This document shows, one piece after another, positions 1-11,249 of a stretch of 11,249 bases of DNA. The translations under genes were made by a program, and so were the position numbers. The DNA is from Nitrospira sp. (lineage in GTDB: Bacteria > Nitrospirota > Nitrospiria > Nitrospirales > Nitrospiraceae). The stretch spans positions 1-11,249 of the forward strand of contig JAJFBJ010000102.1 in the NCBI GenBank assembly GCA_020697375.1, given 5' to 3'. Below the pieces are notes generated by a model. That model searched no databases and had not been told where the DNA came from. It was given only the letters and a program-made list of their open reading frames with translations. The number at the start of each line of letters is the position of its first letter. The first letter of the stretch is position 1.

Positions 1-138
1 CGCCGACGAGATGAGACCGGCCATGGTCGTGTCTGACGACCAGTAGGCAGCATCGCGGATGCGCTCTAAAAGATCGGTCGGCAGACTGACGGTCATTCGT
101 TGCCGTTTCGGGCTTCTCATGTAGACGAATCGATTCAT
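1..138 (-). CDS. Ribbon-helix-helix DNA-binding protein, N-terminal part (cut by window edge)
   Basis: The first 46 codons are inside the window and the gene runs off the left edge. After a short basic start the protein reads KRQRMTVSLPTDLLERIRDAA, a typical ribbon-helix-helix pattern: a beta strand of alternating residues (MTVSLP) followed by an amphipathic helix (TDLLERIRDAA), then a second helix that begins near residue 40 (TMAGLISSA). Such proteins dimerise and bind DNA through the paired strands, and they often act as transcriptional repressors or antitoxins. The start is set by AAAGGAG seven bases upstream of the ATG. The small membrane-protein gene at 245-370 lies 106 bases upstream in the same orientation. 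The DNA target and any toxin partner cannot be seen. Confidence 0.75.
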   Translation of the reverse strand, partial: MNRFVYMRSPKRQRMTVSLPTDLLERIRDAAYWSSDTTMAGLISSA

Positions 139-244
139 GGTGTAACTCCTTTGCAGAAGAGGCGCAGATGCGCGGGCCTGCCCACTTATGGGTTCTCCTG
201 ATCAAGGCGCGCGGATCCGCTCCTCGTGGATGGTGCCAGTCTCT

Positions 245-370
245 TCATACTTCGCGGTGGCGAGGATGGATTTCAGCCTGCCGAGAGGCAGGATCTTTCC
301 ATGCCGCGATGACCAACAGCACCAGCATGCCGCTCACTCCAATCAGTAGGCCGCCCATGACGAGTTCCAT
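245..370 (-). CDS. Small single-span membrane protein, 41 residues
   Basis: This short reading frame encodes 41 residues. An N-terminal hydrophobic helix (about residues 3-23, including LLIGVSGMLVLLVIAAW) is followed by a short polar, basic tail ending in HPRHREV. The call rests mainly on an excellent Shine-Dalgarno sequence (AAAGGAG, six bases before the ATG) together with the clean membrane-span-plus-tail layout. I do not recognise a family. Similar tiny membrane proteins serve as accessory subunits of respiratory complexes or as regulators, but nothing here points to either. It lies upstream of the ribbon-helix-helix gene in the same direction and could be co-transcribed with it. A second small single-span protein with the same layout occurs at 10589-10795. 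Confidence 0.6.
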   Translation of the reverse strand: MELVMGGLLIGVSGMLVLLVIAAWKDPASRQAEIHPRHREV

Positions 371-615
371 GTCAGGCTCCTTTCGGTATCCTCGGATTCC
401 AGGCGTCCGAGACATTCATATAATTTCTACACTAAGGAAATGCAGCAATACCCATGCCATTGTGGAGCAGAAATACGTGGCTGTCTGAATGCGAGGAATA
501 TTTTGCGAATTTCACTTCGGCAGGAAGACTACTTCTCAACGACGGCTATGCAGGTGTGTGATCACGGGAAACTGTATCATACTGTGGACGTATCGGATTG
601 TTCGTTTTCCGGGGG
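371..615. other. Intergenic stretch with weak promoter-like sequence only
   Basis: I see no convincing gene in this stretch. Short plus-strand frames are present, but they lack ribosome binding sites and protein-like composition. On the minus strand TTGCTG, a 17-base spacer and AATTAT (about 422-450) could form a weak promoter for the small membrane-protein gene. On the plus strand there is an exact TATAAT at 419-424, but I see no matching -35 and no gene for it to serve. The right part probably contains the poorly defined left boundary of the transposase remnant. Confidence 0.3.
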
Positions 616-948
616 GAGGTCAGGCCGCCGAGGGAAAAGATTCACGATGTCGTCGAGCTCTATCTGGATCCGCCCACTCACGCCGTCGTGCTGAGCGTGG
701 ACGAGCAGACTCAGATCCAGGCGCTCAATCGCACGCAACCCCTTCTGTCATTGCGGCCGGGCGTGCCGGCCCGACAAACCCATGACTATCGTCGGAACGG
801 CTTGACGAGTCTCTACGCCGCGCTGGAGGGAGCCTCCGGCACGGTCGTGGGCGAGTGTTGCGCACGCCATACCGGCGCCGACTTTCTGCGCTTCCTGAAC
901 GTGCTGGTGCGGCAGTATCGAACGCGAGCGCTGCATATCGTCCTCGAT
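616..948 (+). pseudogene. IS630-family transposase remnant (internal fragment of the DDE domain)
   Basis: About 110 codons read as part of an IS630/Tc1-type transposase. The visible pattern runs VVLSVDEQTQIQALNRTQP, then RPGVPARQTHDYRRNGLTSLYAAL, then GTVVGECCARHTGADFLRFL and finally ALHIVLD. The first catalytic Asp lies in SVDEQT and the second in IVLD. The usual continuation after IVLD (Asn, a few residues, His-Lys-Thr-Pro) is missing. The frame turns into unrelated METYEFLLFL and stops at 981, so the third catalytic acid is lost. The N-terminal helix-turn-helix part is also missing on the left. A full transposase of this family is about 340 residues, so this is a dead fragment. It is convergent with the biosynthetic cluster, ends about 65 bases from it, and is visibly GC-rich. 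I found no terminal inverted repeats. Confidence 0.8.
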
Positions 949-1014
949 ATGGAAACGTACGAGTTTCTATTGTTCTTGTAGAACTTGAATGCAGAGCAGC
1001 GTCCTACTTCATGC

Positions 1015-2565
1015 CTAATTGTTCTTGTCGATAGCAGCTCGCACGACAATATCTTTGGCTGCACGATGCCCCGACTGTAATGCCCCCTCCATCCATCCCG
1101 GTCGACCCCAGGTGTGATCTCCCGCAAAAAACGTGCGGCCTTCGGATCTTTGAATATGAGGGACCAGCTCGAACATCTGTCCTGGCCGAAAGAGCGGATA
1201 CGCACCTAGTGACCACTTTTCTTTGTCCCAACATCGAGTGGCATGGTGGGAGCCGGCTGCGTTGTAACTTTTCTTAAGCCCTGGGTAGACCTTCTCTAAT
1301 TGATCAAGAGTAAACTGGACGCTCTCGGCATCTTTCATGGCAGTAACTCTCTCGCCCAGCATTCCCACCATGTAAGCTTGTATGATGCCTTGAGGGGTAT
1401 CCTTTCGCCGAGCATATGTCATGTCGAGCAAGTTCATTCTGCAGACTCCCGGGTCATTCGGTAAGTCATCAGGGAGGTCCAAAAATGCGACGCCATTGAA
1501 TTTATCTTCTCGGTCCCAGACACGTTCTTTGCACTGAAGATATACCCTTGCTACAGTGGCATAGGGCAAATTCCTAATGGCATGTAATTTCTCCGATGAA
1601 AAAGGGAGATTCCTTATGTCCCTAAGCGTGGAGAAGGGAATCGCAGATACCAAATAGGTTCCCTGTATCTTCTGTTCTTGGCCGTCTTTTTTGTACGTGA
1701 TGGAAATGCCCGTCTGCCCTTGCATAATTTCGGTGACTGGTGCTTCCAAGATTGTGCGGACATTCTTCTCACGTGCATCGAGCCGTTTCTTAAATTCTTG
1801 CGGAAGTGCATCCATGCCACTCTTAAGCGTATACCATTTGGTTTGGGGGTCCTGGCACATTTGACGTGCCACCGCGCCGTCTCGGAATACCGATAAGGCA
1901 GAAATTTGGTCGAGGTCATCCCACCATCCAAACCAAGGGCGTATCAATTCAATGGCTTCGTCTGAGGCTCCGCGCATTCTTAAGAAAGTGAGGAAGCTCA
2001 CGTCGTCACAGCTTTGAAGATCAAGAGAAAGCTTTGTGCTGGGCCATGCTGGTTGGCAAGGATCTACAAGAGCGGTTTGAGTGCAGATATATCTACCAAG
2101 TAGTCCCCAAAATCCTGCGGCAGCTTCCTTAGGGTTTGTCAGAGTTGGCCAAGGTATCTCAGGTGTACTCCTTTTGGCCAGATCAACAGCTTGCCCGCTC
2201 TCATGTAGTGGTATGAGCTTCTCTAATCGGCGAAAATAATAAGGTAGGGTGGTTCCAGGAAGTACGACCTGCGATAACTCACCGTGGGCATCAAGCTCGA
2301 ATTTCCTCACATAGTCGAGCGCGAGCCGATGATCTTCCGAAACCCAAAATGCGCCAGCTTCCGCAGATAGATTCTCAGTAAATTCTTTGCGGAGAGTTTC
2401 AACGCGGCCGCCAACCCTGTCACGCGATTCAATTATTATAATTTCCCATTCTTCAGACGAAAATCCCCGTTCCCTTAGGTGATAAGCGCATGAGAGACCT
2501 GCCAAACCTGCACCAATGATGATCACCCTCTTTTCGGCAGCTTTCTTTTCGGCAGCGTTTCTCAT
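1015..2565 (-). CDS. FAD-dependent amine oxidase-like flavoenzyme
   Basis: This 516-residue protein has the layout of the flavin amine oxidase/phytoene desaturase superfamily. Residues 14-23 (VIIIGAGLAG) form the Rossmann dinucleotide-binding loop. An acidic strand end (IIIIESRDRVGGRVETL, about residues 38-56) carries the ribose-binding Glu and the GGR motif. The C-terminal FAD-binding end reads FFAGDHTWGRPGWMEGALQSG, about residues 476-496. Members oxidise C-N or C-C bonds using FAD and oxygen, and the fold is usually soluble. The substrate cannot be read from the sequence. As the last gene of a TOMM operon, 49 bases after the 558-residue gene, it is a candidate tailoring enzyme for the modified peptide. 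AAGGGG six bases before the ATG is the ribosome binding site, the same core used by the preceding gene. The N-terminus carries a small tandem repeat (AAEKK/AAEKR). I see no clear terminator after the stop. Confidence 0.85.
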   Translation of the reverse strand: MRNAAEKKAAEKRVIIIGAGLAGLSCAYHLRERGFSSEEWEIIIIESRDRVGGRVETLRKEFTENLSAEAGAFWVSEDHRLALDYVRKFELDAHGELSQVVLPGTTLPYYFRRLEKLIPLHESGQAVDLAKRSTPEIPWPTLTNPKEAAAGFWGLLGRYICTQTALVDPCQPAWPSTKLSLDLQSCDDVSFLTFLRMRGASDEAIELIRPWFGWWDDLDQISALSVFRDGAVARQMCQDPQTKWYTLKSGMDALPQEFKKRLDAREKNVRTILEAPVTEIMQGQTGISITYKKDGQEQKIQGTYLVSAIPFSTLRDIRNLPFSSEKLHAIRNLPYATVARVYLQCKERVWDREDKFNGVAFLDLPDDLPNDPGVCRMNLLDMTYARRKDTPQGIIQAYMVGMLGERVTAMKDAESVQFTLDQLEKVYPGLKKSYNAAGSHHATRCWDKEKWSLGAYPLFRPGQMFELVPHIQRSEGRTFFAGDHTWGRPGWMEGALQSGHRAAKDIVVRAAIDKNN

Positions 2566-2614
2566 GCTAATCCCCTTTTATGCAATGAATTCCGGATATA
2601 TGGGAGCCCGGTCA

Positions 2615-4291
2615 CTAGGCGGAAGGCGGCTGCCAAACCCGAGCTAAGGCAGATCCAGAATTGCCCCATACCTCATCACGTTCATAGCTAATCTCTAGCG
2701 CTTCACAGAGCCTTTTGTTGATGTCGGCATACAATTGACTATCTTCGAATGCGGCTAAAGTGGCTCCGGCCAAAAGCTGAGCATCATCCCCCATATTATT
2801 AATTGAACCTTCTACTTTGGCCTGAGTACGAAGTAGTCGGCCACATATCTCAACGGCGATACTCTCACGAGAATTATCCCAAGTAACTAGGTCTTGAATT
2901 GATAGATTGCTACAGGTCTTTAAGTTTGCAGTGGAAAGATAACGCCCAACCTCGCGGGCATATTCCTTCATCCGATACAATGGAATGGAATTGTAGATGC
3001 CAGGATGAGCGGACTGGGCGGCTTCTATCCAGACATCTGAGCTGATCTGGAGAGAGCCGCGAAGCCTTACAACAGTGTTTCCTTTGCGAGCTCTACCAGC
3101 ACAATCTGTTGTGCAAATGGATATAGCCTCCTCGATCATTTTTATGTAGTTAGTCCTGATAGCTTCGTCTAGTCCCCGTAACTCTGCAATCACACCAATC
3201 ATGACCCAAAGCCGGAGTACATCGGATGGATGGTTATCTAAGTCGCCACCCTTATCCGGCGACGAAACATGGAGAACTGGAATTTTCTCCATTTCAGTTT
3301 GCTGGTTGGCAAGTCTTGTAAGCCGAGCGACTCTTGCAGCCTTCTCTTCCGTGGGAAGACCATCACCGCCGTACTTGAGGCTATCGATGATCCACGGAAT
3401 TAATTGTCGATTGAAGACCGCCGTAAAAACAAGTGAGTTCAGTGCAAACTCTGGCCCCATATTCAGAATTGCAAGCGCGTCGGCCGCTGCCTCTCCAATC
3501 CAATAGCGCCAGAGCTGCGCAAGAAATTGAGCAGATTCTGTTGACTCTTGATTGAGAAGGGTGAGAAATCGGGGAGACCTATGTTCCTTTTTGCCATTCT
3601 GTCCCTTTGTGAATAGATCAAAGGCGCCTTCCTCCAGTTCAGGCAATAGCTCTCGATCCGCGCGCAGGACGTCATGTCCGGCAACCTCATGCGCAAGGCC
3701 AGCCCAAAGTACGGGATGACTTCTGTAAGTAGCTGGCAGCACAACCACTCCCACGGTCCCGCCAAACAGGAGTCGAACCTCGTCCGCTGGAAAGATGTAT
3801 GGTCCAGGATCGGCCGGGAACGTGGTCTGGTATTTGAAGGTGGCCAAAGGTGGCAGGGAATTTGTGACTTCTCCAAGTCCGGCTTGTCTCCTTGTGGAGG
3901 CAGATAGAAACGTGCGGGTAAAATTTGAGATGACTGCTAGAAAGCACTGCAGCTGAATAAAAAGCAGTGTGCCGTTCAAGTAATCTGGGTCTGATAGGTC
4001 GTAGATAGCACCGACTAGATTCTCTACATATGGAGAAGGAGTCTGTTTCATCACAAGCTCGATATTGGTTTTGAGAGGATCTGCAAAAGCAGCTCTATAA
4101 CTATATGGGAGGTCATTAATACCGCTATCAATTGCTCCTACTAGTTCTGCTTTTTTGTATAGGCGATCTTCGTGCAACCAATCCATCCGCGCTCTTCCGC
4201 CATCTTTATGCCCCTCCCCGATCAGTCTGACTTCATCTGCTATCTTGATATAAAGACTCGTCAAGTGCTTCTCTAAATTTTCTGCAAGCAT
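2615..4291 (-). CDS. Unrecognised 558-residue protein with HEXXGH motif (putative zinc metallopeptidase)
   Basis: I do not recognise the family by overall sequence. The striking part is HEVAGH at residues 201-206, placed in a helix-like segment (VLWAGLAHEVAGHDVLRAD), followed 60 residues later by WIGEAAADALAIL with Glu267 and Asp271. An HEXXGH motif followed some 55-65 residues later by an (E)EXXAD/E motif is the zinc-binding arrangement known in dipeptidyl peptidase III (M49). In that family the two His and the second-motif Glu bind zinc, and the Glu of HEXXGH is the catalytic base. Homology to M49 is not claimed; only the motif pair matches. There is no signal peptide, so it is probably cytoplasmic, where a leader peptidase for a TOMM precursor could act. 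The start has AAGGGG seven bases upstream. It follows the dehydrogenase gene after 91 bases and precedes the flavoenzyme. Alternatives are a catalytically inactive immunity or scaffold protein. Confidence 0.75.
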   Translation of the reverse strand: MLAENLEKHLTSLYIKIADEVRLIGEGHKDGGRARMDWLHEDRLYKKAELVGAIDSGINDLPYSYRAAFADPLKTNIELVMKQTPSPYVENLVGAIYDLSDPDYLNGTLLFIQLQCFLAVISNFTRTFLSASTRRQAGLGEVTNSLPPLATFKYQTTFPADPGPYIFPADEVRLLFGGTVGVVVLPATYRSHPVLWAGLAHEVAGHDVLRADRELLPELEEGAFDLFTKGQNGKKEHRSPRFLTLLNQESTESAQFLAQLWRYWIGEAAADALAILNMGPEFALNSLVFTAVFNRQLIPWIIDSLKYGGDGLPTEEKAARVARLTRLANQQTEMEKIPVLHVSSPDKGGDLDNHPSDVLRLWVMIGVIAELRGLDEAIRTNYIKMIEEAISICTTDCAGRARKGNTVVRLRGSLQISSDVWIEAAQSAHPGIYNSIPLYRMKEYAREVGRYLSTANLKTCSNLSIQDLVTWDNSRESIAVEICGRLLRTQAKVEGSINNMGDDAQLLAGATLAAFEDSQLYADINKRLCEALEISYERDEVWGNSGSALARVWQPPSA

Positions 4292-4382
4292 ATGTTGTCC
4301 CCTTGGCGCCTAGAGTAACTTTATTGACATCTTAGACATTGATCTTTACAGCTCCGTTGAAGATACGGTAAATCTGCAATTG

Positions 4383-5201
4383 CTATGCACGTGGCTCTGA
4401 TCTGGTTGGCTTTGTGCGCTGCCCGATAGCTACGATATAGATTGTTGAATGTGTAACCCCGTCGAGCCCGAGTAGATCGTCAATTTCATGGTCAAAAAAT
4501 CCGCCTATATTTATACTTCCTAGATTCAGACCGTTCGAAACTAGATTAAGATTCTGTGCGACGTGGCCAGCTTCCAGTAATATAAAGCGGTACCCCCGAT
4601 CGCCATACTTGAAAATAGATCGTTCGAAAATGGCCGTAATAAATATAATGATTGATGCCTTCCGAATGAGTTCGGGATATGCCGTGGCGCGTTCAATACG
4701 CGACATCTCTTCCTGAGTACTAAGCAAGCGGAGCTGATTTTGTTCCGGACTGTAATGGTACATGCCAGGAGGATTCTCTTCGATGCAGGAGCTGTAAAAA
4801 AACAGTTCTAGAGGGTATAAGGCTCCGCCTGAGGGAACGACTCTAAATGGGCGGGGGAAAGTTGCCGCACTATTGGATCTATTTATACCGTAAGCATAAT
4901 GGAGAAGAGTCGCTATTTTACCGAGTGATAATCGTTCAGGATTTAGATGACGACAAGAAGTGCGGCTCGTGATTGCTTCGGAAAGCGACAATTTGAAGTG
5001 AGCATCAGGAGGAGGCAATTTTATTAAAGGATATCCGACGAAATCCAAAGACTCATGAAGCTTTGTCATCCGCAAGCGGACCTCCTGATCGGAAAGGCCT
5101 CTACTAAACCTGCCTATCTTGGAGTTTTCATGGAAAAGTTCCCAAAGCTGGTCTTTATTGCCAGGTGGTAAGTATGTGTCCTGCCACAATTCAGATGACA
5201 T
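4383..5201 (-). CDS. SagB-type FMN-dependent azoline dehydrogenase
   Basis: This 272-residue protein belongs to the nitroreductase-fold SagB/McbC group. These enzymes use FMN to oxidise thiazolines and oxazolines in a peptide to thiazoles and oxazoles. Hallmarks are SRTSCRHL (residues 79-86, the FMN-phosphate region), RVVPSGGALYPLELFFY (120-136) and KYGDRGYRFILLEAGHVAQNL (from 198). That last segment contains the adjacent Lys198-Tyr199 pair that matches the catalytic Lys-Tyr known in microcin B17 McbC. GLNLGSINIGGFFD (225-238) ends the fold. Length is normal for a stand-alone enzyme. AGGAG lies only three bases before the ATG, an unusually short spacing, so translation may depend partly on coupling to the YcaO gene, which stops 13 bases upstream. 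The presence of this enzyme predicts aromatic azoles, not only azolines, in the product. Confidence 0.93.
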   Translation of the reverse strand: MSSELWQDTYLPPGNKDQLWELFHENSKIGRFSRGLSDQEVRLRMTKLHESLDFVGYPLIKLPPPDAHFKLSLSEAITSRTSCRHLNPERLSLGKIATLLHYAYGINRSNSAATFPRPFRVVPSGGALYPLELFFYSSCIEENPPGMYHYSPEQNQLRLLSTQEEMSRIERATAYPELIRKASIIIFITAIFERSIFKYGDRGYRFILLEAGHVAQNLNLVSNGLNLGSINIGGFFDHEIDDLLGLDGVTHSTIYIVAIGQRTKPTRSEPRA

Positions 5202-5214
5202 TGGCTCCTCTCAC

Positions 5215-6537
5215 CTAAGGTAAGGGATGTGGAATCGGATTGTCTCCCTGAGATCTAAGGATTCCTCGATAGCCGAGTCTTTGTGGTATTTCCCAAAGCC
5301 GATCTCCTCCCAAAGCTCGAAGATGATGACCGACACACAGCGGGTGAAAGCCGGGTATTACTGCTCGCATGACTGAAAAGCCGAGGCTTTTAACGTCTGT
5401 GGTAGTTACATCAGCAAGTAATACTTGGTGGCCTCCACTGACAATTCGGTCAATCAGAATTGCCAGATCCTGATCAAGATCTCCTGTGGAATGGTTCGTG
5501 ATGTCAGTGAAATTGATTCGTTTTTCAGATTTAAATAAGTAATCAACAAGGTGCGCATTTCCATGATCGCAATACAACGCAACGTGGCTGTCGCGGTCGA
5601 CGACATTTGTAAAGCATCGGTTAGGTGTGAAGTTGTGCCGCGAGGCCTTGAGAAGCCGGCAAAACCTATAGCTATGGGCAAGTTCTTCGAGACTTTTCCG
5701 TACTGCCTCTGATGGGTTTAAATGACAAGAAAGCGCAAAAACCAGTGCAGGGGCATCCGAACAGTTATTTCTGAGAACTGAAAAGATAACGGGTATGTCG
5801 TGATCCATCTTTAGCCTGAATAGAGTCAATCTTGATCCAATGCGTTCAAACCTTTTGACCAGTTCAAGATTTGTATGGTCAAGTGATTCAAGAATAATTT
5901 GAGGTGGTTGCAATCGTGCTTGCCAGGTGATCGTAAAAGCATCCCTTTCTAGCACTTCGCAAATGGCGGAGAGAGAGGCACGTGTGGGGCCGACATGACA
6001 TGCCAAGCCAGTCGATATCGGTTGAAGTATGGGAAATTCGTCGCGATCTTTATCATAAAGGTATGGAACAAATACCATGGCGGCAGGGATATGGTGAATC
6101 TGCCCCGTTTTGGGGTCCAATGCCGGCGTCCATCGGACGATCGTCGAACGGTTAAATGGTCTAAAGGGAAATGACCGCTTTCTATATTGATGCGGGCGGT
6201 AAAGGGCAAACGTTTCTGGAGCTACGCATAAAAATGAGGCATTCTCAAAAGTAGACAGTGGTAATTCTTCATGGAAGTAAATGGATGAACAGTACCGCTC
6301 CACTGCTTCGCCTATAGCCTTTGCCAGTGCCCTGTCGCGTTCCGATGAAGCTCCTCCGGCGTCAGCTGAATTACGTTGCGGACATAGACTTCGAGTGTCG
6401 CAAGCTCGTGCGTAGAAATGAAAAAAGTTCGGACTACCCGCTTCCGCTGGTACTTCTGTTACATAACGTACAATTCCGACTGATTCATCGACGAGCGATG
6501 TGATACTTTCAGAGAGCATTTCAAGAGATGGATTCAT
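5215..6537 (-). CDS. YcaO-domain azoline-forming cyclodehydratase (TOMM D protein)
   Basis: This 440-residue YcaO-family enzyme is of the thiazole/oxazole-forming peptide maturase type. It uses ATP to activate a backbone amide and cyclise Cys, Ser or Thr side chains to azolines. ATP/Mg-binding segments are visible: AKAIGEAVERYCS (72-84) and STGLACHVGPTRASLSAICEVLERDAF (175-201), with the acidic residues in GEAVER and EVLERD. The C-terminus is PIPHPLP (434-440), an exact PxPxPxP tail. In characterised TOMM YcaO proteins this proline-rich terminus is needed for cyclodehydration and lies near the active site, so the reading frame is complete and probably functional. The start codon overlaps the stop of the E1-like gene as ATGA, with GGAG seven bases upstream, so the two subunits are likely made by coupled translation and form a complex. 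It is a separate protein, not fused to the partner. Confidence 0.95.
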   Translation of the reverse strand: MNPSLEMLSESITSLVDESVGIVRYVTEVPAEAGSPNFFHFYARACDTRSLCPQRNSADAGGASSERDRALAKAIGEAVERYCSSIYFHEELPLSTFENASFLCVAPETFALYRPHQYRKRSFPFRPFNRSTIVRWTPALDPKTGQIHHIPAAMVFVPYLYDKDRDEFPILQPISTGLACHVGPTRASLSAICEVLERDAFTITWQARLQPPQIILESLDHTNLELVKRFERIGSRLTLFRLKMDHDIPVIFSVLRNNCSDAPALVFALSCHLNPSEAVRKSLEELAHSYRFCRLLKASRHNFTPNRCFTNVVDRDSHVALYCDHGNAHLVDYLFKSEKRINFTDITNHSTGDLDQDLAILIDRIVSGGHQVLLADVTTTDVKSLGFSVMRAVIPGFHPLCVGHHLRALGGDRLWEIPQRLGYRGILRSQGDNPIPHPLP

Positions 6538-7634
6538 TTTCGCTCTCCGCTATCCCAGTCTAGTGGAACAAAAAATGTTTTCTCGGGATTAGTGGATGCT
6601 TGAAGTTTCATTCGACTACAAACACGGCAACGTGGAACCTTTAATACTTTTCTTTGCGTTAAACGCAATTCCCGCAGATTAAACTCAATAAGCGTTCCGA
6701 CCTTCGCCAAGTCCTCTAACCCACCGTAGAGTTTTGTTAACTCAAACGCGGCTATATTCCCCAGGATAGCCGGCATCGCGGGATGAAGGCCGAAGGATTG
6801 TTGCCCGTCAAAAGCCGCATCTTCACATGCCTGCCAGAGAGCCCAATCATCGATATGGCTGTTATGGCGTGCTCGGAGGCATTCGAAACAAGCAGTTTCC
6901 TCAGGGATGATCAGGGGTCCAACACTGCCAGAAACATTTTGTAGAATCACAGGGAGAAGGTGACATTTACTGCTAACACAAAGCGCATTCACCTCGTGAA
7001 AAGACGAGTTGCTGCCAAAATCAGAAGTAATTACGACGCAGTCGGTGTCTTTGGGATCAAATTTCTCGCTCGTCGCGATATAATTCCGTGTTTCATCAGG
7101 CCAGGACTGATTCAGAAATGTATGGCTCTTATCAAAAAAACTCAAGTTCCGTAATAAGGGAAGGTCCACAATCTTCAGCTGCTTGAGACCGGCCTTATTG
7201 AGCGCACCCGCGATTTGGCGAGAGACCTGATTCAAACCCAAGATGGTAATCCGCCGCTCTGCTAGACTTGGAACGGCTTGTGTGAATCCGCTATGTAGAT
7301 CCCAGTAAAAGACTTGTAGATTGCCATCGACCGCCTCGCCGGTAAACATGTGGGAATCGTGGCGAACCAGTAAGTTCCATCCGACGAGCTGATTGATCAG
7401 ATTTTTCACAAGAGACTTGACCTTTGGCGAAAATAGATTGCAGATTTGCTCAACCGTTCTCCCCTCATTCTGGGTCTCTTCCAGAATGATACGTACGGCT
7501 TTGGCTGCGCCTTTTGTGCCAAGCTTAACCGTCGTTCCTCCACGACGTAGAAGTACTCCTCCGGGATAGTCGATAAATTGAACCTGCAATGACCGCAATG
7601 CATCAGAGATATGGGAAGTCACGTCAATATTCAT
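6534..7634 (-). CDS. ThiF/E1-like TOMM leader-binding cyclodehydratase partner
   Basis: From the ATG at 7634 this encodes 366 residues. The first ~95 residues look like the winged-helix RiPP recognition element (for example residues 26-53, GVLLRRGGTTVKLGTKGAAKAVRIILEE; about 65-95 form the helical part). The rest is an E1/ThiF-like domain with RRITILGLNQVSRQIAGAL (127-145) where the nucleotide-binding loop would be. That loop is degenerate (GLNQVS instead of GxGxxG), as expected when ATP chemistry has moved to YcaO. Two cysteine pairs, CFEC (249-252) and CRVC (336-339), match the structural zinc site of the family. The role is to bind the precursor leader and present the core to YcaO. A TTG six bases earlier could add two residues, but the ATG is preferred; neither has a strong Shine-Dalgarno sequence. 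The gene follows the precursor after about 128 bases that hold a hairpin, and overlaps YcaO by four bases. Confidence 0.9.
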   Translation of the reverse strand: MNIDVTSHISDALRSLQVQFIDYPGGVLLRRGGTTVKLGTKGAAKAVRIILEETQNEGRTVEQICNLFSPKVKSLVKNLINQLVGWNLLVRHDSHMFTGEAVDGNLQVFYWDLHSGFTQAVPSLAERRITILGLNQVSRQIAGALNKAGLKQLKIVDLPLLRNLSFFDKSHTFLNQSWPDETRNYIATSEKFDPKDTDCVVITSDFGSNSSFHEVNALCVSSKCHLLPVILQNVSGSVGPLIIPEETACFECLRARHNSHIDDWALWQACEDAAFDGQQSFGLHPAMPAILGNIAAFELTKLYGGLEDLAKVGTLIEFNLRELRLTQRKVLKVPRCRVCSRMKLQASTNPEKTFFVPLDWDSGERK

Positions 7635-7714
7635 GTCCAAAGTTCCAGCATATCGCCAAGTGTGACCGTGCTGCCCTCACAATGCTTAACAATTGCACCG
7701 GCCTCCCAATCTTT

Positions 7715-7745
7715 CGGAGGGGAGTCTCACGCTGCCTCCCCTCCG
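7715..7745 (-). terminator. Perfect 10-bp hairpin between precursor and enzyme genes (possible attenuator)
   Basis: CGGAGGGGAG at 7715-7724 and its exact complement CTCCCCTCCG at 7736-7745 enclose an 11-base loop. The hairpin starts 18 bases after the precursor stop codon in the transcription direction. No U-run follows on the minus strand (the next transcript bases are AAAGAUUGGG), so it is not a standard intrinsic terminator. A partial terminator, or a stem that stabilises the 3' end of the precursor message, would give many precursor copies per enzyme copy. That arrangement is known between sagA and sagB in the streptolysin S operon. Confidence 0.55.
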
Positions 7746-7762
7746 TCAAAATCCTCAACTAG

Positions 7763-7936
7763 TTAGGAACTACTGCAGCAGGTACAGAGTCCCGGTACCG
7801 ATTGAGTTGAGGTAGCTGCCTTTCGTATTGCAAGTCTTATCGCATCGAGATCCTCTACCGTTAAATCCCCTGCCTTCTTTTCTTTGATCTTGTTGGAGAC
7901 TTTCACGTTTTCCCAATCTTTGAGTTTCGCGCTCAT
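7763..7936 (-). CDS. TOMM precursor peptide, 57 residues, core ending CTCCSSS
   Basis: This small gene encodes 57 residues. The leader is highly charged and Cys-free (MSAKLKDWENVKVSNK at the start, then DLTVEDLDAIRLAIRKAA at residues 24-41, a predicted amphipathic helix). It is followed by a Ser/Thr/Gln linker (TSTQS) and the tail VPGLCTCCSSS (47-57). All three cysteines and a run of Ser/Thr fall in the last seven residues, so each could be a site for azole formation. The leader helix is a plausible docking site for the recognition element of the adjacent E1-like protein. Translation is supported by a strong AAGGAGG four bases before the ATG. The gene sits directly upstream of the E1-like, YcaO and SagB genes, the usual place for a TOMM substrate. 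There is no GG or GA leader-cleavage motif; the Pro-Gly at 48-49 may mark the leader/core boundary, though this is inferred. Confidence 0.88.
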   Translation of the reverse strand: MSAKLKDWENVKVSNKIKEKKAGDLTVEDLDAIRLAIRKAATSTQSVPGLCTCCSSS

Positions 7937-7940
7937 GGTT

Positions 7941-7947
7941 CCTCCTT
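7941..7947 (-). promoter_or_regulatory. Strong ribosome binding site of the precursor peptide gene
   Basis: AAGGAGG on the minus strand, then AACC, then the ATG at 7936. It is among the strongest Shine-Dalgarno sequences in the cluster and decides the start codon. It fits a substrate peptide that must be made in excess over the enzymes. Confidence 0.85.
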
Positions 7948-8001
7948 GGTTGATGCGTGATTTTGCGAAGACGATGTGACTATCGGTTGCTTCCTATGGA
8001 C

Positions 8002-8014
8002 GATCACCTCCTTA
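8002..8014 (-). promoter_or_regulatory. Extended Shine-Dalgarno-like element without a start codon
   Basis: The minus strand reads TAAGGAGGTGATC, beginning at the TAA stop of the receptor gene. All 13 bases are complementary to the usual 3' end of bacterial 16S rRNA (GATCACCTCCTTA). Nine bases after GGAGG there is ATA, not ATG, and that frame reads only four more codons before TAG. No ATG, GTG or TTG at a useful distance follows. It may be the relic of a lost small gene, a ribosome-holding site, or part of the precursor leader RNA. Confidence 0.4.
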
Positions 8015-10165
8015 GTATCTAAGTGTTAACCAGCCCATGACTCGGCTGCCAATTGTATCCCCGAGTGGATGTTCCTTATGTTTATCGTTTAGTGCGCTGA
8101 AGGCTGTAATCGCCACCTCAGCATGCTCGTGCCAGAATTGATAAGCTCCTCGAAGGTTCAGGAGGGTGTATGAACCTACCGTAGTACTAGGCGGTAGGGA
8201 GGCGTTGAACGGAAAGGCAGTAAATTGCGAGAATGCCCCAGAGATCGGATATGTCGCAGAGCTCACATAATGGACTGCTGCTTCACCGCTTAACCCGTTG
8301 GCCCACTCGCCTCGAAGGCCTGCATTAATCTTGTCCCTGGGGGCCCCTCGAGTAACCTCTTGGATGGTGAATTTCTGCCCAATCTCTTGATAAGAATAGT
8401 TGATGAATCCGCTTAACCATGATGTGGCTAAAAATTCTACCCCCACTTCGAAACCATAAATGTCGGCTGAGCCATTGTTGAAAAATGTAACCAATCGGGG
8501 GTTATCCGCTGGCCTGGTTCTCGCGATGAGATTTGATATGTGGTTAAAAAACAAGTTCCCTCTCACCCGTACGCGGTGCTTGAGAAACCAACCTTGATAT
8601 CCAAGTTCATACGATGCGATTTGTTCGGGGCTGAGGTTTGACGCCCCTGCCAATCGCCCCGGGGTGACACTCGATGGCACAAAGGGAGGGATTCCAGGAA
8701 AAAATACCGACGAAGCTGCGCTCCCATGAGTCTCAAATATGGTAGGCGGACGGTATGCTACTGAAGCCGATACCCGAATAGTATGATTCTCAGCAAGCTG
8801 GTAGATGATTGCTCCGCGAGGACTGTAGGTTGGATTGATAAATGTGTCCAAATCATATCGAAGCCCGGCCACAGCCGTTAAAGACTCCGTCGCACGCCAT
8901 TCATCTTGAAAGAAAATTCCTAAACGATTTTCCGTGACGTATTGATCCAACAGCGGAGAGGAGCCGGTGTTGTGGCGATAGTTGAATCCATATGTGAGGC
9001 GATTGTTAGACACCAGTTCGATGGAATGCTGAGATTCCAAGTTGTAACTGTTCTGAGTGGCTGAGTTGGTGGGGTTGCCTGATGCATCTCCAACAGAAAT
9101 AAATCGTGCAATACGTGGATCCACCCTTGAAGTAAAATTATCGTTCCAAGTTTGCCACCAGGCTCTGATGAAAAAGTTTGGCCGTTCATACAAGGCATTG
9201 GCATATCCATTACTAATCTTGGTTGAGCCGTGGAGAATATCGAACACCGGCCCATCGAAACGGTTGGTATCCACAATTCCGCCCGAGAAAGTAACTCTCG
9301 ATTTATCGGCCATTGCATATTCAACCTGGCCGTTGAATTTATGGTCTCTGAATGCGAGAGCGTCGCGGTTATTCCACTGGTTTGTCTGATCTCGTCCTAT
9401 TGAGAGACGATAGCCCCAGTTCTTATACACTCCGGCTTGTATCGCAGCTGATGATATCGTCCCTAATTCGCCGCCACCGAATTGAACGGTAGTTCCTTTC
9501 ATTTCTTGCGGAGATTTTGTGATGATGTTAATCACGCCATCGAAGGCGTTGAATCCGTACAAAACTGAGGCGGGTCCTTTCAGTACTTCGATCCGTTTAA
9601 TCTCAGGTAACGTAATAGGAATAGACTTCCACCAAACCTGTCCCTGTATATCTTCATAAATACTGCGGCCATCCACGAGAACCAGCATTTTGTTTTGCTG
9701 TAGCTGATTGTCTCCTCGAACGCTGACATTGAAGTCTGCTCCCGTCACTTGCATAACGTCTATTCCGGGAATACGTCGGAGAACTGTCGGAAGGTCTATA
9801 GCGCCGGAGTGCCGAATATCTTCATCAGTGATGACGTAAACATCCGATGGAGCCTTACTAATTAATTCTGCTCGTCCAGGAAATAATCCTCCCGCAATGA
9901 CGGCGCTTTCTTCTTCCTTGATCAGCTCCAGTTCCGGAACGTTTACATCGCGTTGCTTTGTGATTAGAGTTTCGTCATCAGAGGTGGTGGAGGGCTCGTT
10001 CGTAGTTAAACCAGATGTATCTGGCTGGGCTAGGACCGATGGAACATCCACCGCTAACAAACACAGGGCGCTCATACTTAGCACCACCCGTATGAAGAGC
10101 TGTATTTGATGAAGGTGATGCGGCTTCGCCGAGAGGAAGAAAAAATGCGGAAACTGAGTAGCCAT
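8012..10165 (-). CDS. TonB-dependent outer-membrane receptor
   Basis: From the ATG at 10165 this gives 717 residues. A signal peptide has its hydrophobic core at about residues 21-46, and the likely cut is after VPSVLA, before QPDT. The plug domain spans about residues 95-215: APSDVYVITDEDIRHSGAIDL, the RIPGIDVM segment, VSVRGDN, MLVLVDGRSIYED, then IKRIEVLKGPASVLYGFNAFDGVINIIT. A beta barrel of about 500 residues follows and ends in LTLRY with the terminal aromatic residue typical of outer-membrane proteins. These receptors use TonB energy to import siderophores, other metal chelates, cobalamin or peptides. GGAAGGAG ten bases upstream favours this ATG over the upstream GTG at 10222, which would put 19 extra residues before the signal peptide. 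It precedes the precursor by 75 bases in the same orientation, so its ligand may be the cluster's product. I see no convincing TonB box and no cobalamin riboswitch. Confidence 0.92.
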   Translation of the reverse strand: MATQFPHFFFLSAKPHHLHQIQLFIRVVLSMSALCLLAVDVPSVLAQPDTSGLTTNEPSTTSDDETLITKQRDVNVPELELIKEEESAVIAGGLFPGRAELISKAPSDVYVITDEDIRHSGAIDLPTVLRRIPGIDVMQVTGADFNVSVRGDNQLQQNKMLVLVDGRSIYEDIQGQVWWKSIPITLPEIKRIEVLKGPASVLYGFNAFDGVINIITKSPQEMKGTTVQFGGGELGTISSAAIQAGVYKNWGYRLSIGRDQTNQWNNRDALAFRDHKFNGQVEYAMADKSRVTFSGGIVDTNRFDGPVFDILHGSTKISNGYANALYERPNFFIRAWWQTWNDNFTSRVDPRIARFISVGDASGNPTNSATQNSYNLESQHSIELVSNNRLTYGFNYRHNTGSSPLLDQYVTENRLGIFFQDEWRATESLTAVAGLRYDLDTFINPTYSPRGAIIYQLAENHTIRVSASVAYRPPTIFETHGSAASSVFFPGIPPFVPSSVTPGRLAGASNLSPEQIASYELGYQGWFLKHRVRVRGNLFFNHISNLIARTRPADNPRLVTFFNNGSADIYGFEVGVEFLATSWLSGFINYSYQEIGQKFTIQEVTRGAPRDKINAGLRGEWANGLSGEAAVHYVSSATYPISGAFSQFTAFPFNASLPPSTTVGSYTLLNLRGAYQFWHEHAEVAITAFSALNDKHKEHPLGDTIGSRVMGWLTLRY

Positions 10166-10284
10166 CCGCGGCTCACTCCTTCCGGCCCCTAAACGACTTC
10201 CAGCGCACTGTGCCAGGCGCACTGGATAATCAGGAGAGGTGCTTAGAACACCGCCTCGTCATGTCTGAACAAGTTGGGGCTTAG
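10166..10284. other. Receptor gene upstream region, no clear promoter
   Basis: This stretch holds the receptor gene's ribosome binding site (GGAAGGAG on the minus strand) and presumably its promoter, but I cannot find a convincing -35/-10 pair or an operator such as a Fur box by eye. A 60-residue minus-strand frame that covers 10243-10425 starts with TTG, has no ribosome binding site and overlaps the palindromic repeat, so I do not call it a gene. Confidence 0.3.
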
Positions 10285-10407
10285 CAGGATGCGGAAAAAG
10301 TCCGCCAGCGGCGTTCTCGCATCGTTCAGCGGCTCACCGTACGGCAAGAGCACGATTCGCCGCTTCGCTCGCTGCGGCCTTGCTGGACGGCCTTTTTGCG
10401 CATCCTG
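10285..10407. repeat. Long imperfect palindromic intergenic repeat (Nitrospira-like)
   Basis: The left arm at 10285-10309 begins caggatgcggaaaaag, and the right arm at 10382-10407 ends ctttttgcgcatcctg. The arms are near-complements of each other over about 25 bases, with a few mismatches and a one-base gap. About 72 bases lie between them, including the GC-rich cttcgctcgctgcggcc stretch. Such large stem-forming units scattered between genes resemble REP-like or MITE-like elements. I remember this type of sequence from Nitrospira genomes, but I could not search. It lies just upstream of the receptor promoter region and may terminate transcription coming from the right flank. Confidence 0.6.
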
Positions 10408-10588
10408 TTGACTATCTGATACCAACCGGCCATGTGATCTGCCCGCGGCTTATTGTACAAAAATTGAGTTTTTCCGCAGCTTGTTGGAACTCATCTCGGT
10501 ACGAGCCTGGTTCCTGTCACGCACAGTATTCTTCATCCCGGTCAGCCCAATGTACTGTGCCGATCGTCACAGCCTATGCCGTCGCCGG
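10408..10588. other. Intergenic stretch with nothing recognisable
   Basis: I see no gene, RNA or clear regulatory site here. Two overlapping plus-strand frames lack ribosome binding sites and run into the small membrane-protein gene on the other strand. Part of the left side may belong to an extended form of the palindromic repeat. Confidence 0.3.
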
Positions 10589-10795
10589 CTAGGCCACGGA
10601 GTCTTTGCTCCCAGAAATGTGAGTCGGTGTGACAGACTCGCTTGGATTGTGCGCTTCAGCTGAATCGATTCTCGGCCCGTCTACGGGAGTGGCATCGATC
10701 CAGATGCGGCCGGCCGCTATGAGAAGGAAGAGGATGCCGAGAAGCAGGAAAGTGAGCGCGATCATAATGACCTCTTGGATGCGCTGTTCTCCCAT
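10589..10795 (-). CDS. Small single-span membrane protein, 68 residues
   Basis: This encodes 68 residues. A short polar N-terminus (MGEQRIQEV) is followed by one strongly hydrophobic helix, about residues 10-30 (IMIALTFLLLGILFLLIAAG), and a polar tail rich in Pro, Ser, Asp and Thr. AAGGAGG eight bases before the ATG is an excellent ribosome binding site and is the main evidence that the gene is real. I do not recognise a family. It lies 279 bases downstream of the DUF928-like gene in the same direction and upstream of the palindromic repeat, so it is probably not part of the biosynthetic operon. Its layout, one N-terminal span followed by a short soluble tail, is like that of the 41-residue protein at 245-370, but the sequences do not look related. 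Confidence 0.65.
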   Translation of the reverse strand: MGEQRIQEVIMIALTFLLLGILFLLIAAGRIWIDATPVDGPRIDSAEAHNPSESVTPTHISGSKDSVA

Positions 10796-11074
10796 CGGCG
10801 TGCCCTCCTTGGGGAACGATCATCTGAGTTCGTCAAAGCGCAAAGGTTGTGCCAATATCAGACGCTATGTCCTGAACCGAGTTTGTGTTCGAGGAACTCC
10901 AGAATCCTAAGGAAAACAGGTCGAGCCATTCAGCTCTGACTTCATTTCGATTTCGCTACGCATGAAGAGGTGTATCCAAACGGATTCAGGGAGTATCTAA
11001 ATTGATACGACATGCTGTGAGCGCAGAGGCGGAAATGAGAATTCAGGCAGGTCAGTATGGGAAGGAGCCCGGCA
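10796..11074. other. Intergenic stretch, only a small inverted repeat seen
   Basis: No gene is supported here apart from the ribosome binding site of the 68-residue protein at the left edge. A short inverted repeat, GTATC-taaatt-GATAC at 10993-11008, could be an operator or chance. No terminator follows the DUF928-like gene within the bases I checked by eye. Confidence 0.3.
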
Positions 11075-11249
11075 TTACCCTGGCCAGTACACTCCAGACT
11101 GGTTCAATAGGTGTCGAAGCATCGTTCTCAAGGTGGCATTGTTGCCATCCTGCTCAATGAGTTCAAGCAGGCAGGAAATGGCGTCATACCACAAGCCCGA
11201 TTCGGAATACCGATAAATCGCATCTCTGCTACAAGCGGTCCAGGTACAG
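11075..11249 (-). CDS. C-terminal end of a DUF928-like protein (cut by window edge)
   Basis: The last 57 codons and the stop are in the window; the start lies beyond the right edge. The readable part contains IYRYSESGLWYDAISCLLELIEQDGNNATL and ends LRHLLNQSGVYWPG. The pattern [AS]ExGxWYDA[ILV]xxLxEL followed by a short helix and a terminal Leu/Val segment resembles the C-terminus of DUF928 proteins, a family of unknown function that often occurs near CHAT or TPR proteins. This match is from memory and the fragment is short, so the assignment is tentative. The helix-rich, TPR-like composition is directly visible. It is transcribed toward the 68-residue membrane-protein gene. Confidence 0.5.
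   Translation of the reverse strand, partial: CTWTACSRDAIYRYSESGLWYDAISCLLELIEQDGNNATLRTMLRHLLNQSGVYWPG

Follow-up and report, generated by a model that had tools for sequence, protein, structure and literature searches.

We propose that an operon on a Nitrospira sp. contig (JAJFBJ010000102.1, positions 1 to 11,249; this whole stretch of 11,249 nucleotides is called the window below) makes a thiazole peptide from the cysteines of the short sequence GLCTCCSSS, and that this peptide is recaptured by a dedicated TonB-dependent outer-membrane receptor, most likely as a metal carrier; to this reading as a whole we give a probability of about one-half. The synthesis of an azole peptide and the pairing of the receptor with the biosynthetic genes are both well supported by sequence comparison, and the metal cargo is suggested by the class of the receptor and the clustering of the predicted thiazoles. 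The operon is of the thiazole/oxazole-modified microcin (TOMM, azole peptide) type and runs on the minus strand from 10165 to 1015, with seven genes in intact frames:

8012..10165, minus strand: TonB-dependent outer-membrane receptor, 717 aa (PF00593, E 8.7e-36; PF07715, E 1.1e-19)
7763..7936, minus strand: precursor peptide, 57 aa, with the leader helix motif LTVEDLDAIRLAIRKA (found with a profile that left the window out; position kept in relatives)
7766..7792, minus strand: predicted core of the precursor, GLCTCCSSS, with three Cys (Cys cluster aligned with the C-terminal ends of relatives)
6534..7634, minus strand: E1-like (ThiF/MccB type) leader-binding protein with two CxxC motifs (TIGR03882, above cut-off)
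5215..6537, minus strand: YcaO cyclodehydratase of the SagD family with a PxPxPxP tail (TIGR03604)
4383..5201, minus strand: SagB-type flavin mononucleotide (FMN) azoline dehydrogenase (TIGR03605)
2615..4291, minus strand: HEXXGH protein, metallopeptidase-like, with HEVAGH at residue 201; candidate leader-trimming enzyme
1015..2565, minus strand: flavin adenine dinucleotide (FAD) amine oxidase, the flavoenzyme (PF01593, E 9.2e-55); nearest solved relatives L-amino-acid oxidases

The frames and gaps, when recomputed, bore out the initial annotation's account of seven genes in one direction with little between them: from the receptor to the flavoenzyme the intergenic gaps are 75, 128, -4 (an ATGA overlap), 13, 91, and 49 bases, and the summed gene lengths account for 8799 of the 9151 bases of the operon span. 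Family assignments were made with NCBIfam hidden Markov models (HMMs) at the curated NCBI cut-offs and, for the receptor and the flavoenzyme, with Pfam. The YcaO protein (292.6 bits against a TIGR03604 cut-off of 219.25), SagB (153.6 bits against 78.4 for TIGR03605), and the E1-like protein (46.3 bits against 36.9 for TIGR03882) all fall in TOMM families, as had been predicted; the E1-like protein stays below the cut-off of the longer C-protein model TIGR03603 (96 against 187.65). The catalytic signatures previously described as intact could each be located, namely the YcaO C-terminal tail (PIPHPLP), the Lys-Tyr pair of SagB at residues 198-199, and the two CxxC motifs of the E1-like protein (CFEC and CRVC). 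Among solved chains, YcaO is closest to MJ1094 (E 1.1e-14) and next, over their C-terminal halves, to MusD, TruD, and LynD (E 7.6e-14 to 3e-13), and SagB to a putative nitroreductase, 3eo7 (E 9.9e-42), and then to McbC (E 5.4e-14). The E1-like gene starts at 7634, with an in-frame TTG also present upstream at 7640; a profile built from an alignment of nine relatives matches MccB (E 7.6e-18) and LynD (E 5.5e-7), and residues 11-91 were modelled as strands, three helices, and a strand with a predicted local distance difference test score (pLDDT) of 71-86 for this block, within an overall poor model. By the established chemistry of the assigned TOMM families, the leader helix would be bound by the E1-like protein, YcaO with ATP would convert Cys (perhaps also Thr/Ser) to azolines, and SagB would convert the azolines to azoles.

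The precursor gene is preceded by a strong ribosome-binding site (AAGGAGGAACC-ATG). Its unmodified product has a calculated monoisotopic mass of 6136.18 Da, from which each azole, of which Cys alone could provide up to three, would take 20.03 Da. A profile was made from 14 C-terminal parts of relatives, with the window itself and six relatives with different-looking leaders (L089, L092, L096, L106, L107, and L109) excluded; run against the 347 stop-to-stop frames of the window, it recovered the precursor at E 8.4e-6 as the sole frame above the inclusion threshold, the second-best frame standing at E 0.83. By this sequence-based measure the precursor frame is not there by chance. It has no match among NCBIfam models, and a protein search, a weak method for so short a query, returned only the self-match. 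Relatives that retain the enzymes have a related frame in the corresponding position, as the initial annotation required of a genuine precursor, with some leaders and cores quite different. The peptide at this position in L001, a Nitrospirales locus, ends in SLCTCCCCA and has a similar leader helix, and small genes at the same position elsewhere end, for example, in YFCCSCA, YFCCTCV, NACCSCLG, GVCCCCT, YICCTCC, and ACDACCTCW. Two loci (L088 and L095) carry a tandem pair of precursor genes with similar cores, YFCCSCA/V and YFCCTCT/V. In an acidobacterial locus (L155), the start of the precursor, judged by eye, resembles a twin-arginine signal (GGRRQFVSAAITAAG), which hints at Tat export of the modified peptide.

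A search of 395 Nitrospirota genomes at E 1e-20 gave this YcaO in 13 (in one of them as a distant match only), and a search of 235 Nitrospirales genomes at E 1e-60 gave it in 17. The nearest named YcaO belongs to a Nitrospirales bacterium and the nearest receptors also come from this order, in line with the “Nitrospira-like” origin that had been surmised. When the same gene order was sought in related genomes, as had been advised, 16 of the 17 Nitrospirales loci proved to have a receptor of the same family lying upstream of the genes for the precursor, the E1-like protein, YcaO, and SagB, the contig of the 17th being cut. In G470 the receptor is cut off by the start of the contig, and in G473, with a divergent YcaO (33% identity), the contig starts 504 bases before the E1 gene and the receptor is not judgeable there. 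Single genes may intervene between receptor and E1, namely a methyltransferase in L097 and an amine oxidase in L109. The core enzymes also occur outside Nitrospirales, in another Nitrospirota locus (L094), in two Acidobacteriota (L154 and L155), and on a Tistrella plasmid (L073); these four have longer Cys-rich cores, e.g., CCCCTCTPCCCC, and the 18-21 kb read at each contained no receptor of the family seen in the window. A compact Cys cluster is present in most, not all, of the receptor-bearing loci. A single gain of the receptor within Nitrospirales is the probable history.

One could argue that the receptor is a mere neighbor, its substrate some nutrient that has nothing to do with the peptide and its co-transcription with the TOMM genes due to other causes. 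Its parent family is indeed widespread in Nitrospirales (111 of 235 genomes at E 1e-100), and five second copies at TOMM loci lie outside the TOMM-adjacent clade. In a tree of 57 receptors, however, the 15 that adjoin TOMM genes form a single clade apart from the common family of the order, with a Shimodaira-Hasegawa-like approximate likelihood ratio (SH-aLRT) support of 96, and this clade spans different organisms and different sets of tailoring genes; in a reduced tree of 41 receptors its support is 88/90, and it forms a single group in 85% of 200 bootstrap trees. The distances between receptors correlate with those between YcaO proteins (r 0.63 over 15 loci; 0.50, p 0.006, over 13 nonredundant ones) and between SagB proteins (0.58 and 0.46, respectively), and less with those of E1 (0.37); the enzyme-enzyme correlations are 0.68-0.76. 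To control for species history, rpoB distances of 13 genomes were held constant, and the analysis was repeated without the near-copy L087. The receptor-YcaO partial correlation is then 0.61 (13 loci, 0/5000 permutations), or 0.54 (p 0.005) without L087, and that of receptor and SagB is 0.52, or 0.43; the weak tracking of E1 (0.31, or 0.16) is a point in favor of the neighbor explanation. The tracking of YcaO and SagB beyond species history, together with the missing receptor at the four loci outside Nitrospirales, argues against a chance neighbor, an explanation we regard as improbable. Across the same 13 genomes, the distances of YcaO, E1, and SagB barely track rpoB (r 0.04-0.15) and those of the receptor do so more (0.40), from which it would appear that the operon may have moved between lineages, with the receptor traveling at least partly with YcaO and SagB.

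A second alternative concerns the purpose of uptake. Many characterized TOMMs are antibacterial, and the secreted azole peptide might act as a narrow-spectrum agent that enters related Nitrospirales through the same-family receptors of nonproducers. Such an entry route would be available in 96 of the 111 genomes with the receptor family, which are without this YcaO at E 1e-60, and the core residues differ between loci. On the other hand, one would hardly expect a producer to carry the entry receptor in the very operon that makes the peptide and yet have no immunity gene, and none was recognized in the window; an ABC-transporter (ATP-binding cassette) signature was likewise not seen. We consider this unlikely, if worth keeping in mind.

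Downstream of SagB, the operon carries two genes whose roles we can propose from family resemblance. The residues H201-E202-x-x-G205-H206 are invariant in 46 HEXXGH sequences, and HEXXGH is the zinc motif of dipeptidyl peptidase III (M49). No Pfam family (at E 0.001) and no NCBIfam family matches this protein, and its model (pLDDT 90) bears a weak resemblance to zinc peptidases; in view of the lack of a Pfam peptidase match we call it metallopeptidase-like only. By its sequence relatives, the HEXXGH family is wide and not specific to TOMM systems: at 71 of 72 HEXXGH loci, some of them short contigs, no E1, YcaO, or SagB relative was found, and four more database HEXXGH proteins lie on contigs equal in length (12378, 457162, 13045, and 10431) to those of close YcaO matches, a coincidence that suggests linkage. 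The flavoenzyme matches structures of L-amino-acid oxidases (LAAOs) from E 1.5e-34. Hence, we postulate that the HEXXGH protein might trim the leader and that the LAAO-like enzyme would then oxidize the exposed N-terminal amine, after which the product would be exported by a system encoded outside the operon and re-enter through the TonB receptor, whose pairing with these genes is supported by its phylogeny. The description of the cluster as complete thus holds for synthesis and uptake, but it does not extend to an ABC-transporter signature or a proven leader peptidase: the signature scan gave none in the window and none in 18 E1-YcaO-SagB loci (other exporter types were not scanned for), and there is no Pfam protease family among the seven genes.

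The tailoring genes vary between loci. The HEXXGH and LAAO-like pair is found in the window, L001, L093, and L096, HEXXGH without an oxidase in L097, and an oxidase without HEXXGH in L109; in L106 and L110 the sequence ends too early for the downstream genes to be called. In 9 of the 17 Nitrospirales loci the gene after SagB is DyP-type peroxidase-like; the Pfam match comes from one of them (PF20628, E 4.2e-7), with which the other eight were grouped by sequence. These nine bear on the further idea that the peptide is a signal or a scavenged compound which, in the style of lasso-peptide isopeptidase systems, leaves the cell, comes back in through the TonB receptor, and is dismantled inside by the HEXXGH protein, then not a leader peptidase. 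Lasso clusters, which also hold GntR and sigma/anti-sigma genes, are described (in part of PMC9266682) as combining a TonB transporter with a hydrolase-like gene in the same way, which speaks for it; the nine DyP-type loci have no HEXXGH motif, which speaks against it, and we hold it to be rather improbable. A second YcaO and a TfuA lie inside the TOMM operon of L096 (3911-6609, minus strand), which suggests thioamidation and a peptide with both azoles and thioamides. On a Planctomycetaceae contig (L004, 1703-4910) a DyP-type gene precedes a HEXXGH gene, and no TOMM gene was detected.

Returning to the recaptured metal carrier, several points weigh against it. No metal-related, export, or immunity gene was recognized in the window; the solved relatives of the receptor are too distant for naming a ligand; and an E. 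coli-like Fur box was found at none of 16 loci within 350 bases upstream of the receptor, the best scores (10-11 of 19 positions) equaling those of shuffled sequences, which weighs somewhat against a role in iron, with the reservation that the consensus is that of E. coli and may not hold in this phylum. The receptor family is far wider than the operon, as the 96 genomes without this YcaO attest, and the support of the TOMM-adjacent clade is only moderate in the more careful tree of 41. The receptor-E1 partial correlation is weak (0.31, p 0.027, over 13 loci; 0.16, p 0.20, without L087), the enzymes track one another (YcaO-SagB, 0.72) better than the receptor tracks them, and the receptor follows rpoB in part. 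The cores are not uniform, L096 having a candidate with one Cys and L093, L106, L107, and L109 having longer tails behind the Cys residues. Next to SagB at the nine DyP-type loci, neither a HEXXGH relative nor a LAAO-like one was found, and leader trimming and N-terminal oxidation are suggested by family resemblance.

A more specific and more tentative version of the metal-carrier reading is that these Nitrospirales operons found an azole-peptide metallophore type: YcaO and SagB would make a thiazole counterpart of methanobactin, with its N terminus oxidized by the LAAO-like enzyme; the type might have arisen from an ordinary TOMM system with a long Cys-rich core, which captured a TonB receptor and whose core shrank to a compact Cys cluster in most lines. 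The compact core is not shared by L093, L096, L106, L107, and L109, for which reason we have lowered our estimate of this version and regard it as possible, with the odds against it.

Two noncoding or fragmentary features accompany the operon:

7715..7745, minus strand: 10-bp G+C-rich hairpin between the precursor and the enzyme genes
598-981, plus strand: IS630 transposase-like fragment adjoining the 3' end of the operon (NF033545, 63.2 bits, below the cut-off of 100)

The hairpin has a minimum free energy (MFE) of -28.4 over a 76-nucleotide stretch (z -3.2), and a hairpin lies at the corresponding place in L001 (z -3.2); it is not general among the relatives. It is possibly an attenuator or a protector of the mRNA end that sets an excess of precursor. 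The transposase-like fragment, despite its score below the model cut-off, and the G+C content of the operon (0.482, against 0.535 and 0.565 in the flanks), as in an acquired island, might be taken to mark the operon as an inactive remnant. However, every frame and motif is intact, and the operon likewise has a lower G+C content than both flanks in 10 of the 15 relatives measured, so that we find this explanation scarcely credible.

Just upstream of the receptor gene lies a palindromic dispersed repeat (10282-10407, some matches extending to 10483), within a region (10270-10420) that folds into a long hairpin (MFE -67.9, z -3.4). The 1020-base flank that holds it was searched within Nitrospirales (23 candidates scored, from up to 253 at first look) and has matches in 19 of the 20 genomes given, at up to 28 places per genome; among the matches listed nearly all fall on the repeat, at about 79-94% identity. 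It matches no Rfam family, and as a many-copy repeat common to several species, it merits study of its own.

Known azole peptides are mostly weapons. If the proposed recapture is correct, they would gain a nutritional or signaling role in an order that includes nitrite oxidizers and comammox bacteria, and the finding would bear on how slow-growing Nitrospirales acquire metals for nitrogen enzymes. With its precursor family, its receptor clade, and its interchangeable tailoring genes, this receptor-paired class lends itself directly to testing.

Among known systems, methanobactin would be the functional analogue: it has the MbnT receptor and an N-terminal carbonyl made by MbnN, and would share with the present operon Cys-derived heterocycles, a TonB receptor, and the loss of the N-terminal amine. 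What the operon has in common with a metallophore system is the dedicated TonB receptor; it differs from methanobactin in its YcaO-based chemistry and in having no MbnB/MbnC-like gene among the seven, with metal binding here a prediction.

With the clusters for TOMMs or linear azol(in)e-containing peptides (Cox et al. 2015, PMC4603692, main text), the operon shares a short precursor, a leader-binding partner, a YcaO protein, and an FMN dehydrogenase; it has the SagD-type YcaO, the C/E1-like partner, the optional dehydrogenase, and an adjacent Cys/Ser/Thr-rich precursor that define such clusters, with the azoles predicted. It differs in the dedicated TonB receptor, a precursor without an NCBIfam model, the lack of an ABC-transporter signature, and the extra HEXXGH, LAAO-like, or DyP-type genes; in that main text, “Nitrospir-” and “TonB” have no occurrence. 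The cytolysin-type (streptolysin S group) clusters described there have ABC transporters and a CaaX-like protease, and neither the signature in the window nor a Pfam protease family among the seven genes was found here. The itf cluster of B. thetaiotaomicron, as far as described in part of PMC11002830, is likewise a cluster for a ribosomally synthesized and post-translationally modified peptide (RiPP) that combines a YcaO (ItfB) with a TonB-dependent transporter (ItfF), but it also encodes a radical SAM enzyme together with an ABC/C39 transporter, and its product is an amidine; the present operon has SagD and SagB azole chemistry in their place. The lasso-peptide isopeptidase clusters (PMC9266682, in part) also pair RiPP genes with a TonB transporter and a hydrolase, with unrelated modification enzymes and precursor. 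We found no report of a TonB transporter for azole peptides in the open-licence papers searched. The TOMM chemistry itself is known, and the receptor-paired azole-peptide operon is a new variant of it.

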